A stretch of 64,000 nucleotides of DNA. Origin: Candidatus Poribacteria bacterium. GTDB taxonomy: Bacteria > Poribacteria > WGA-4E > WGA-3G. The stretch's first letter is position 1. Each line of letters opens with the position of its first letter. The DNA is taken from positions 1,813,371 through 1,877,370 of the forward strand of contig OY282386.1 of NCBI GenBank assembly GCA_958295945.1, in the 5' to 3' direction. Positions 16,329 through 58,232 of this stretch are shown here, in pieces. The position numbers were made by a program, and so were the translations under genes. The notes under the pieces were generated by a model. It was not told where the DNA came from. It did not search any database and saw only the letters and a list, made by a program, of their open reading frames with translations.

Positions 16329-17492
16329 ATGCCAGAGAAAAACTCTCGACACTTGTTAGATAGATTAGCAGAAATCCAAGACCCGCGCAACGAAAAAGGA
16401 AAACGACACCCGTTGAACTCAATCCTCGGACTTATCATTATTGGTCTTATGTCTGGACATAAAGGATATACCTCCACTGCAACTTGGGCACGGTCACAAC
16501 CTGTCCTCGTCCAAGCACTCGGTTGGACACACAAGACATCACCTTGTGCCGCAACGGGACATAATGTGCTAAAAGTTTTAGATGCGGATGCTGTTGAAAA
16601 GACTTGGACAAACTGGGTAGAAGACGTTTGTCCAAGTCAACCTGATTTAGAAGGGTGTCTTGACACAGTCGCTATAGACGGTCCAACGATGCGTGCCAGC
16701 AAGAAAAGTGGTGCGACAATAAGCCATTTACTCTCCGTTGTTTCTCATGAGTTAGGGGTTACACTGACACAACAAGGTGTCAGCGACAAAACCAACGAAA
16801 TACCGATCTCAACAGAGATCCTTAAGAACTTTGATGTGAGTGGTAAAGTCATCACAACAGACGCACTTTTGACACAGAAAACTTTCTGCCACGCCATCAT
16901 AGAGGGTAATGGAGATTATATGCTCCCTGTCAAAAAGAACCCCCCGGACCTTTATGATGAGATCCAAAAACTCTTTCAAGACGTTCCGGACACGCTTTCT
17001 GAGAATGCGACACATCCTCTATTGGGAGACCCTATGGACAATCACCAGACTTGTGAAAAATCACATGGGAGACTTGAGACAAGGTGTTTGAAAGCAAGCT
17101 CAAGTCTCAACGAATATCTGGACTGGCCAGGCACAGAACAGGTAATTCAATATCGTTATATTCGCAAAAACCCAAATACAGGAGAAGAAACAACCAAAGT
17201 CAACTATGGTAGGACAAGTCTGACACCTGAAGAAGCCTCTGCCGAACGCTTACTTGAACTACACCGTGGGCATTGGTCAATAGAGAACAAGTCGCATTGG
17301 ATGCGCGGGACGCAACTTGGAGAAGACGCATCATCTGTCCGAACGGGGGCTATTCCACAAACTATGGCTGCTTTGCGAAATGCAGCTTTAGCAGTCCTGA
17401 GATTTGATGGCGTTACACGTATTGCTGACAAGATAAGATATTATGCTTCAAAACCTTTACTCGCAGTTAAATTGATAACTGAGTGTTTTTAA
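16329..17492 (+). CDS. ISAs1-family DDE transposase
   Basis: A 387-residue intact transposase. N-terminal RLAEIQDPRNEKGKRHPL and ILGLIIIGLMSGHKGY are family signatures. The catalytic acids are D in TVAIDGPTM, D in VITTDALLTQK and E in HWSIENKSHWM, followed by GEDASSVRTGAIPQTMAALRN. It is the only gene of the element at 16192-17507. AGGTG lies 7 bases before ATG 16329 inside a leader inverted repeat. All motifs are present, so the element may still be active. Confidence 0.94.
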   Translation: MPEKNSRHLLDRLAEIQDPRNEKGKRHPLNSILGLIIIGLMSGHKGYTSTATWARSQPVLVQALGWTHKTSPCAATGHNVLKVLDADAVEKTWTNWVEDVCPSQPDLEGCLDTVAIDGPTMRASKKSGATISHLLSVVSHELGVTLTQQGVSDKTNEIPISTEILKNFDVSGKVITTDALLTQKTFCHAIIEGNGDYMLPVKKNPPDLYDEIQKLFQDVPDTLSENATHPLLGDPMDNHQTCEKSHGRLETRCLKASSSLNEYLDWPGTEQVIQYRYIRKNPNTGEETTKVNYGRTSLTPEEASAERLLELHRGHWSIENKSHWMRGTQLGEDASSVRTGAIPQTMAALRNAALAVLRFDGVTRIADKIRYYASKPLLAVKLITECF

Positions 17493-17584: not shown

Positions 17585-18253
17585 TTAGAACCATTCTGCC
17601 TTAACAGATGCCCATTGTGTCGTCAATTTACCTTCTGCATCAACTGCAAACGGTTCCTCAAGTGTCAAATCATCTTCCGGTTCACCTTCAAAATAACGGA
17701 AGTTATCCAACCAAAAATCAACATCAGATTGTGCAATAGCTAAACCTACCCACATATCTTTATCAATATCAACACCTGCCAGAAAAGTAAAAGAAAATTC
17801 TTCCCACTCTTCAGTTAGATTAAAGTTTTTGCCGTTTCCATGAAATGTTGTCCAAGGGTCATGTTGCAACTGGATATTTATGCTGACTACTCGTGGTTCT
17901 TCAGCACGTGCCCAGAAAATAATAGTATAGTCTCTCCCGCCTTTCATAGAGACATCCATCTGTGTTATCTTTGCATGCCAATCTGTTCCAGTAGCTATAA
18001 CTCCGATAACTTTGAGACTCTTGTCCCCATGTTGTGCTTCTCTATTGTCAATTTCCCACTGATATTCACCACCTCGATCACAGCACTTTCCATCCTCTAA
18101 TGTCCAGGCGGCTAGACCTTCTTCAAAACTGTAGTTTTCAAGGAGTAGTTCCCCTTTTTCCCATTTTCCTAAGTTTTGCACGGTTCCTGGATAAGCACTA
18201 AATCCAATGAATATAGTCATGAGGATAACAATTATAAATATACCTTTGTGCAC
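17585..18253 (-). CDS. Secreted carbohydrate-binding-module-like protein with C-terminal GKL-W tag
   Basis: A 222-residue exported protein. Residues 1-22 are a signal peptide (MHKGIFIIVILMTIFIGFSA). The body from NYSFEEGLAAWTLE to DFWLDNFRYFEG is a jelly-roll of the CBM4/9/22-like type: NxSFEEG start, HGDKSLKV middle and a final VDFWLDNF strand are typical. Such modules bind glycans or accompany glycoside hydrolases, but no catalytic domain is attached. The C terminus (VDAEGKLTTQWASVK) carries the motif also found in the proteins at 41074 and 57513. It stands alone next to the insertion sequence. Confidence 0.82.
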   Translation of the reverse strand: MHKGIFIIVILMTIFIGFSAYPGTVQNLGKWEKGELLLENYSFEEGLAAWTLEDGKCCDRGGEYQWEIDNREAQHGDKSLKVIGVIATGTDWHAKITQMDVSMKGGRDYTIIFWARAEEPRVVSINIQLQHDPWTTFHGNGKNFNLTEEWEEFSFTFLAGVDIDKDMWVGLAIAQSDVDFWLDNFRYFEGEPEDDLTLEEPFAVDAEGKLTTQWASVKAEWF

Positions 18254-40893: not shown

Positions 40894-41073
40894 TGCAGTT
40901 TCCTCTTCCACGGATAAGGTAAAATATATAAGATTGATTGTGTGTGATGTTTTAGATTATATCTTATTCTCTATTTCATGTGGTGGTTTTTCTGTTTACA
41001 GATAGGCATTTCATTGGACATATAATACAGTCTCATGTTATTATGTAAAGAACTGATGAAGGAGGTGACCAAA

Positions 41074-41934
41074 ATGATAAAATCAGTAACTTTTCATGGC
41101 TTGATCATTTTTCTACTTTTAACGACATTTTCAATTCTACCTGCATATTCGGTTGACGTAACTGTTGGTTTGTTGGCAGGCAGTAATGACCTTGGTGAAG
41201 TGGAGGAAGCAGCCTACAATTGGGCTGATGATAATTATCCAGCGACAATCCTTGTTGCAGGCAATGGTGGTACATTCGAAAGCATTGGAGGCGGTGCGGA
41301 CAAATTAGATCAATATGCTGTGTTATGGTTGTTCTACACTGAAACGAATCAGTTGCCGGGTCCATTTGGTGCAGATGCAACCAAAAAGGCAATACTTGAT
41401 TATGTAGAGTCTGGTGGTGGTTTATTCCTCTCTGCCCTTGGCCTCCGCTATGTTATGGATATGGGTGTTGATAATGGTGGAAATGCCCGCGTATTTCAAC
41501 CCCTGGGTAAAGGACCGCCTGAGATTGGCGTTATGCCAACAGAGGAAGCCAAAAATCATCCTGTCTTTAAAGGATTTGATACTGCCAAACCGATTTTTCT
41601 CACAAGTATGGATCAAGCGGGTTTCACAGCAGATTTTATTAATTTCAAAGCAAAGCCACCTGCAGGCAAGATACTCGGTACTAAAACGCGTGGCGGTGGT
41701 GCTGGTGCCGGTGAACGTCCATTTGTTGAATATGATGTTGAGAATGGTAAAATCATCACACTTGGACACCATAATGGTGTATATACTGATACGAAGTCTC
41801 CAGAGAGCGATAATTTGAGAATGTTGACGACAAACGTCCTCAATTACCTTGGTGAGAATTCCACATTCTTTGCTGTTGATCCTAACGGGAAACTTGCAAC
41901 GGCTTGGGGAACCATAAAGTCAGCATTGAAATGA
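41074..41934 (+). CDS. Secreted ThuA/amidotransferase-like protein with C-terminal GKL-W tag
   Basis: A 286-residue exported protein: signal peptide (MIKSVTFHGLIIFLLLTTFS, cut near PAYS), then a flavodoxin-like fold (VTVGLLAGSNDLGEVEEAA, GGTFESIGGGADKLDQYAVL, AILDYVESGGGLFLSALGLR) resembling ThuA/class I glutamine-amidotransferase-like domains but without a visible catalytic cysteine. It ends in VDPNGKLATAWGTIK, the C-terminal motif shared with 17585 and 57513. An extremely strong ribosome binding site (AAGGAGGTGA) precedes ATG 41074; high expression is probable. A terminator follows at 41960. Confidence 0.78.
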   Translation: MIKSVTFHGLIIFLLLTTFSILPAYSVDVTVGLLAGSNDLGEVEEAAYNWADDNYPATILVAGNGGTFESIGGGADKLDQYAVLWLFYTETNQLPGPFGADATKKAILDYVESGGGLFLSALGLRYVMDMGVDNGGNARVFQPLGKGPPEIGVMPTEEAKNHPVFKGFDTAKPIFLTSMDQAGFTADFINFKAKPPAGKILGTKTRGGGAGAGERPFVEYDVENGKIITLGHHNGVYTDTKSPESDNLRMLTTNVLNYLGENSTFFAVDPNGKLATAWGTIKSALK

Positions 41935-57512: not shown

Positions 57513-58232
57513 CTATCTTCCAGCTTTAAGAAAACCCCAAGCCGTTGCGATTTTGCCTTTTGGATCAACGGGTAATGGACCGCCAGGGCCGTAGACGAGT
57601 ACATCATCATATATTGCCATAGTTGCCCATGTAGCGACACCGACTCGTCCAACACCATCTCTGGTGGCATCGTTAATTGTATTTCCTACCTTTTCATCAT
57701 TAAGATAGAGCGTATAACCTGTAGGTGTATTAACAATTTTGATGTCATACCAGTCTCCTGTAGTAATAGTATGGTTCGTGTTAGGACTTGCTACACCACC
57801 CCAGGACTCTACTTTTGAAGTGGTGTTACCCCATCCCCCGAGATTCCACCAATATTCTAAACGATCCTGATTTTGCATGCGTTGTGGGTGTTCTTTAAGT
57901 GCTTTTCCTCGAGGTTCCATTGGACCTTGGCAGCGGAACATAATCAGGAATCCTTCAGCACCGCCGGTCTTTTGACCACGCACTTCGTAGGTGTAGTCAT
58001 TCCAATCCTCATCCCAATAGTCATCAGTAATAATACTCATGCAATTGGAATCGCCGGATTTCTGATGATATTCATCATCTTTGAATTCCCAGTCTCCCCA
58101 TAAGGAAACCCATTTTTTCTCTGATTCGTTTACTTTGTCAAAGTTATCCTCAAATAGGATTTGTGCAATCCCAACCGTTACGATACCAAAGGTGAGAATA
58201 CACAAGAGGATAAATATACCAAGTTTTTTCAT
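57513..58232 (-). CDS. Secreted LamG/concanavalin-like protein with C-terminal GKI-W tag
   Basis: A 239-residue exported protein: signal peptide MKKLGIFILLCILTFGIVTV (cut near GIAQ), then a jelly-roll (LFEDNFDKVNESEKKWVSLW, EFKDDEYHQKSGDSN, NDYTYEVRGQKTGG, YDIKIVNTPTGYTLYLND), as in family 16/DUF1080-like glycan-binding proteins. The end VDPKGKIATAWGFLK is the motif found in the proteins at 17585 and 41074. AAGGAG lies before the ATG. It may bind carbohydrate; no catalytic pair is evident. Confidence 0.82.
   Translation of the reverse strand: MKKLGIFILLCILTFGIVTVGIAQILFEDNFDKVNESEKKWVSLWGDWEFKDDEYHQKSGDSNCMSIITDDYWDEDWNDYTYEVRGQKTGGAEGFLIMFRCQGPMEPRGKALKEHPQRMQNQDRLEYWWNLGGWGNTTSKVESWGGVASPNTNHTITTGDWYDIKIVNTPTGYTLYLNDEKVGNTINDATRDGVGRVGVATWATMAIYDDVLVYGPGGPLPVDPKGKIATAWGFLKAGR

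Follow-up and report, generated by a model that had tools for sequence, protein, structure and literature searches.

A short, phylum-wide C-terminal peptide tag on exported proteins of Poribacteria and its probable link to a divergent T9SS

Exported proteins of Poribacteria, an uncultured phylum consisting mostly of sponge symbionts, share a peptide tag of 15–20 residues at the very end of the protein, and it is close to certain that this tag exists as a real, phylum-wide C-terminal peptide. The tag is probably linked to the poribacterial T9SS; a partner that recognizes it, and a role in secretion or in attachment, are what we infer. A search of the literature found no description of the tag.

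The window analyzed here is a stretch of 64,000 nucleotides from a poribacterial genome of 5.34 Mb in one contig. According to a genome-wide profile search, it holds three copies of the tag in all, on the following proteins:

41074..41934, plus strand: exported DUF4960 protein, 286 aa (an alternative in-frame ATG upstream at 41035 is possible)
41869..41931, plus strand: C-terminal tag FAVDPNGKLATAWGTIKSALK of this DUF4960/ThuA-like protein, read directly from the sequence
17585..18253, minus strand: exported CBM_4_9 (jelly-roll) protein, 222 aa, GTG start
17588..17650, minus strand: C-terminal tag FAVDAEGKLTTQWASVKAEWF of the CBM_4_9 protein
57513..58232, minus strand: exported ConA-like protein, 239 aa, 3-keto-disaccharide hydrolase-like (below the Pfam cut-off)
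57516..57575, minus strand: C-terminal tag LPVDPKGKIATAWGFLKAGR of the ConA-like protein

In each case, the tag comprises the last residues before the stop codon. An initial annotation of the window had pointed to a common C-terminal motif on these three proteins, which direct reading of the tails confirmed, together with the coordinates; that two of the genes lie on the minus strand had been left unstated. The motif proposed then, VDxxGK[LI]xTxW[AG]xxK, agrees with seven columns that are invariant across the three tails (V, D, G, K, T, W and K), although the consensus is broader, with D or E in the second position and an optional G before K. The three proteins do contain different domains, as had been claimed: Pfam assigns the 41074-41934 protein to DUF4960 (38.1 bits vs. 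a cut-off of 29.2) and the 17585-18253 protein to CBM_4_9 (61.7 bits vs. 25.9), and the 57513-58232 protein has a 3-keto-disaccharide hydrolase match of 23.1 bits, under the cut-off of 26.8, so that its earlier description as LamG-like was roughly right. All three have signal-peptide-like N termini, again in agreement with the initial annotation, and none of them matches PF18962 or TIGR04183. Elsewhere in the window, an ISAs1-like transposase identified by eye (16329-17492) adjoins the tagged CBM_4_9 gene, and the translations between 20333 and 31950 include suf iron-sulfur cluster genes (SufC, SufB, SufD, SufS, SufU-like) with unrelated ORFs in between.

The tag is far more abundant in the genome than the window suggests. 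A first protein search gave 83 matches, and a profile built from 31 tails gave 129 candidates, all of whose loci were fetched and their ORFs read. The full motif, V-[DE]-[PA]-x-x-K-L-[TA]-T-T-W-[GA]-x-[LIV]-K, is present in 127 of the 129; 126 of these proteins end 1–10 residues past the last Lys (mode 3) and a single copy is internal. Thus, the proposal to run a profile of the tails on the genome and its relatives yielded approximately 126 terminal proteins in this genome rather than three. The tagged genes form 97 loci, 73 of them solitary and 24 of them small clusters (tandem pairs or triplets). An exact DNA pattern searched over the contigs of species genomes found at least 113 stretches, and all 80 titles among the matches listed were Poribacteria, which is the basis for regarding the tag as specific to the phylum. 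In an independent set of Poribacteria, 132 of 132 distinct matches were terminal, ending 1–8 residues past the motif. A signal-peptide-like start was called in 115 of the 118 ORFs that were complete. The tag profile matched 40 of 40 relatives, and each of the 85 genomes of the phylum, which span 22 genera and 10 families, contained the tag, with 14 to more than 100 copies per genome (high counts being lower bounds) and in a terminal position even in the most divergent lineages. The question raised initially, whether such tails are always terminal and always on proteins with signal peptides, can be answered as essentially always for the former and almost always for the latter, and this was repeated in independent genomes.

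A few sequences deviate from this pattern. ORFs of more than 1000 aa at L062, L036 and L048 have LISAKxKLTT[KT]W[GS]ELK at their end, a version of the tag in which the V-[DE]-P start is missing, and tagged ORFs of 125–150 aa without a signal peptide at L100 (3847194), L105 (4203049) and L031 (117483) resemble the 3′ portions of genes broken by a frameshift, or errors of assembly. Among 2.9 million viral contigs (IMG/VR), there were three tag matches (L336, L337 and L338); these contigs are classed as viral and probably derive from the host or from an uncultured lineage related to it. One of them, L337, encodes a LamG-like ORF that continues for 30 residues past the tag, which is the sole extension seen other than a CTD.

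The consensus of 299 tails is V(94%)-[ED]-[PA]-x-[GDN]-K(97%)-L-[TAS]-T-T-W-[GA]-x-[LIV]-K followed by 1–4 mostly basic residues, in which the 100% occurrence of W and the last K is partly due to the script anchoring on both. The tail sequences and the composition of the 299 tails show no hydrophobic stretch or transmembrane helix near the C terminus, nor is there a conserved Cys in the 299 tails, which bears out the earlier remark that the tag lacks both. A lipoprotein or transmembrane sorting signal was considered and rejected. Conservation is higher in the tag than in the preceding domain (0.72 vs. 0.45 for 55 LamG proteins and 0.80 vs. 0.57 for the P0003 family), while only 43% of third bases agree at shared residues, which indicates selection on the peptide rather than on the DNA; a DNA-level repeat was rejected on the same value (0.43). 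Tails are always basic (median net charge +3), and domains are mostly acidic (median −17). In an AlphaFold model of a tagged LamG protein (55 sequences), the domain has pLDDT values above 90 and residues 237-250 fall below 50, so that the tail is shown by prediction to lie outside the folded domain; the model of window protein P0001 (4 sequences) has a mean pLDDT of 32, and this reading of the tail is not based on it. A tail that is conserved and yet predicted to be unfolded suggests a partner outside the protein.

The association of the tag with export and its independence of any particular fold are equally clear. A signal-peptide-like start, a feature that T9SS cargo also has, was called in 107 of 109 tagged ORFs vs. 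40 of 172 untagged neighbors by one hydrophobicity rule rather than SignalP, so that these numbers represent a contrast and not a calibrated rate. Among 118 tagged proteins, Pfam detected 52 families with unrelated folds among them: 60 proteins contain Laminin_G_3, 14 are PD40 propellers, and others belong to CBM9, CBM_4_9, NPCBM, F5/8 type C, DUF4960 and 3-keto-disaccharide hydrolase. Considering that, of the 71 LamG matches in the genome, the short ORFs are tagged without exception (61/61) and the long ones never (0/10), the tag is no part of the LamG fold. Terminal position, modularity and signal peptides all agree with the initial proposal of a sorting tag or a binding peptide; the sorting or binding function itself we infer.

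The only class of exceptions to the extreme C-terminal position, which the initial annotation had taken to be exclusive, connects the tag to T9SS. This genome contains 25 type A CTDs, and its sole internal tag stands directly before one of them. The combined tag–CTD pattern occurs at 63 sites in 53 of the 85 genomes, compared with none for a reversed-pattern control, and the distance from Lys to N[YF]PNPFNP is nearly always six residues, although the pattern permitted 1–11. Such fusions are found on several unrelated folds, including FG-GAP/ASPIC and WD40-like architectures (family names read from sequence), and keep V, P, K, W, G and K. Homologues of the ASPIC family without a CTD also lack the tag, implying that tag and CTD move as a cassette there. 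Position −4 is L, I, V or M in 92% of free tags vs. 4 of 30 fused copies, which mostly have Q and are mutually related, so that a p-value for this contrast is inflated; the CTD could take over part of the role of the tag, which would favor a function in secretion. Since free tags stop near the point where the CTD starts (Lys+3), removal of the CTD would leave a C terminus like that of a free tag.

The sortase- or porin-like genes that had been suggested as candidate partners are present in poribacterial genomes as homologues of PorU, PorV and SprA. Their loci are as follows:

L251:6677-13099 (genome 1010676-1017098): SprA-like protein, 2140 aa
L333, L334 and L335: three PorU-like C25 peptidases with C-terminal sorting domains
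genome 4199342-4199932: PorV

The SprA-like protein (E=1.8e-43; 148 bits, under the curated cut-off of 200) was found in 12 of 13 genomes, a C25 peptidase in 13 of 13 (361–418 bits with the PorU model, the best being 418.1 vs. a cut-off of 420), and PorV above its cut-off in 13 of 13, whereas 14 control genomes gave no SprA, C25 or PorV match. The neighborhood of the SprA-like gene contains no further recognizable T9SS gene, and a PDB sequence search with the protein returned no match. On the basis of these profile matches, a divergent T9SS core (SprA-, PorU- and PorV-like) is encoded in Poribacteria. A single-cell genome study in 2014 noted type A CTDs in Poribacteria and did not find Por structural genes (PMC3909097), a statement that the SprA-, PorV- and PorU-like genes revise. 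Because all 85 genomes carry the tag, a presence/absence correlation with the machinery has no power.

Compared with known C-terminal signals, the tag lacks the defining features tested of each, and it looks like something that functions as a C-terminal sorting tag. The T9SS type A CTD (PF18962/TIGR04183) is likewise extreme C-terminal, occurs on diverse Sec-exported proteins, many per genome, and is found in the same genomes, at places directly adjoining the tag. However, it is a folded Ig-like beta-sandwich of 70–80 residues with NPFNP-type motifs, in contrast to a tag of 15–20 aa with pLDDT below 50 and no motif in common with it; the tag can also precede a complete CTD. Encapsulin cargo-loading peptides, short flexible C-terminal peptides that bring diverse cargo to a shared partner, resemble the tag in form, but their cargo is cytoplasmic whereas tagged proteins have signal-peptide-like N termini. 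PEP-CTERM/exosortase and LPXTG/sortase are many-to-one C-terminal signals on exported proteins, and the PEP-CTERM, GlyGly-CTERM and LPXTG signals have a transmembrane segment and then basic residues, of which the tag has the basic end only. GlyGly-CTERM/rhombosortase is also many-to-one on exported proteins (PMC3237569). MYXO-CTERM, too, occurs throughout a phylum and marks the C terminus of dozens of surface proteins in each genome (PMC11980579); it has an invariant Cys and an intramembrane-protease partner (myxosortase), in contrast to the poribacterial tag with neither a conserved Cys nor a hydrophobic helix.

Several other explanations of the tails were considered. Chance or compositional likeness might have been suspected from three examples within the window, but 126 terminal copies in the genome and 132 of 132 elsewhere make its probability negligible, and it was rejected. 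It is also very improbable that the tail has no function of its own and was simply handed down within a single LamG family that expanded and spread with domain replacement: approximately half of the tagged proteins in this genome are LamG (60/118), but the tail is their best conserved part although synonymous positions have diverged, none of the ten long LamG ORFs is tagged, and unrelated folds as well as T9SS-CTD cassettes carry the tag. The excess of tail over domain conservation contradicts this explanation, and it was rejected. A periplasmic or assembly peptide that binds a chaperone, a protease or a neighboring subunit in the style of a donor-strand polymer, with no role in sorting, is harder to dismiss, as a conserved disordered tail would look alike for oligomerization or chaperone binding and tandem pairs or triplets occur at 24 of the 97 loci; nevertheless, we consider it decidedly unlikely, given that unrelated folds and 73 solitary genes have the same tag and that its fixed placement against the T9SS CTD points to an outer-membrane route.

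The strongest competitor, still an unlikely one in our opinion, is that the poribacterial T9SS (SprA/PorV) reads the tag itself as a minimal signal for secretion across the outer membrane, i.e., as a short alternative to the 70–80 residue CTD. Tag-only proteins have a signal peptide, no obvious lipobox and no other obvious way out, nearly every genome tested has T9SS core genes, and position −4 relaxes when a CTD follows. There is also a precedent in P. gingivalis, in which GFP is secreted with no more than the final 22 residues of the CTD of HBP35, and in which Lys residues close to the end of the CTD are important (PMC10202324); the tag likewise ends in a conserved Lys. On the other hand, such a signal would be redundant before a full CTD, yet the tag is kept there in several unrelated families, and neither a likeness to CTD motifs nor a predicted Ig-like fold was seen in it. 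Attachment, as a task distinct from secretion, is favored by the retention of the tag in front of a complete CTD; secretion is favored by the relaxation at −4 and by the absence of another route for tag-only proteins.

We give about an even chance to the reading in which the peptide is a modular poribacterial C-terminal sorting or attachment tag that takes effect at the mature C terminus once Sec has exported the protein. Tagged proteins, judging by their signal peptides, would be exported by Sec, and a factor outside the protein would bind the conserved, basic and flexible tail. The most likely site of action of the tag would be the outer membrane or beyond, where it would keep small sugar-binding proteins and propeller proteins on the cell surface or within the extracellular matrix. 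In tag–CTD proteins, the type A domain would drive outer-membrane crossing, and its removal, an assumed cleavage suggested by the fixed spacing, would leave the tag exposed at a newly formed C terminus; for tag-only proteins, the SprA/PorV/PorU system is the leading candidate for the outer-membrane route. More tentatively, and at somewhat less than even probability, the tag may represent a new class of sorting signal: a short, unfolded, phylum-specific C-terminal peptide, lacking a membrane helix, Cys and an Ig-like domain, that would use a dedicated receptor to display approximately one hundred lectin-like and other proteins per cell on the poribacterial surface and would operate in sequence with a divergent T9SS, CTD cleavage handing the protein over to the tag receptor.

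Taken at the level of sequence, a one-line rule predicts approximately one hundred exported proteins in any genome of a dominant uncultured phylum of sponge symbionts. Most tagged proteins are sugar-binding and are therefore likely to belong to the interface with the host, and the tag–CTD cassettes make the anchoring of poribacterial surface proteins a directly testable question.
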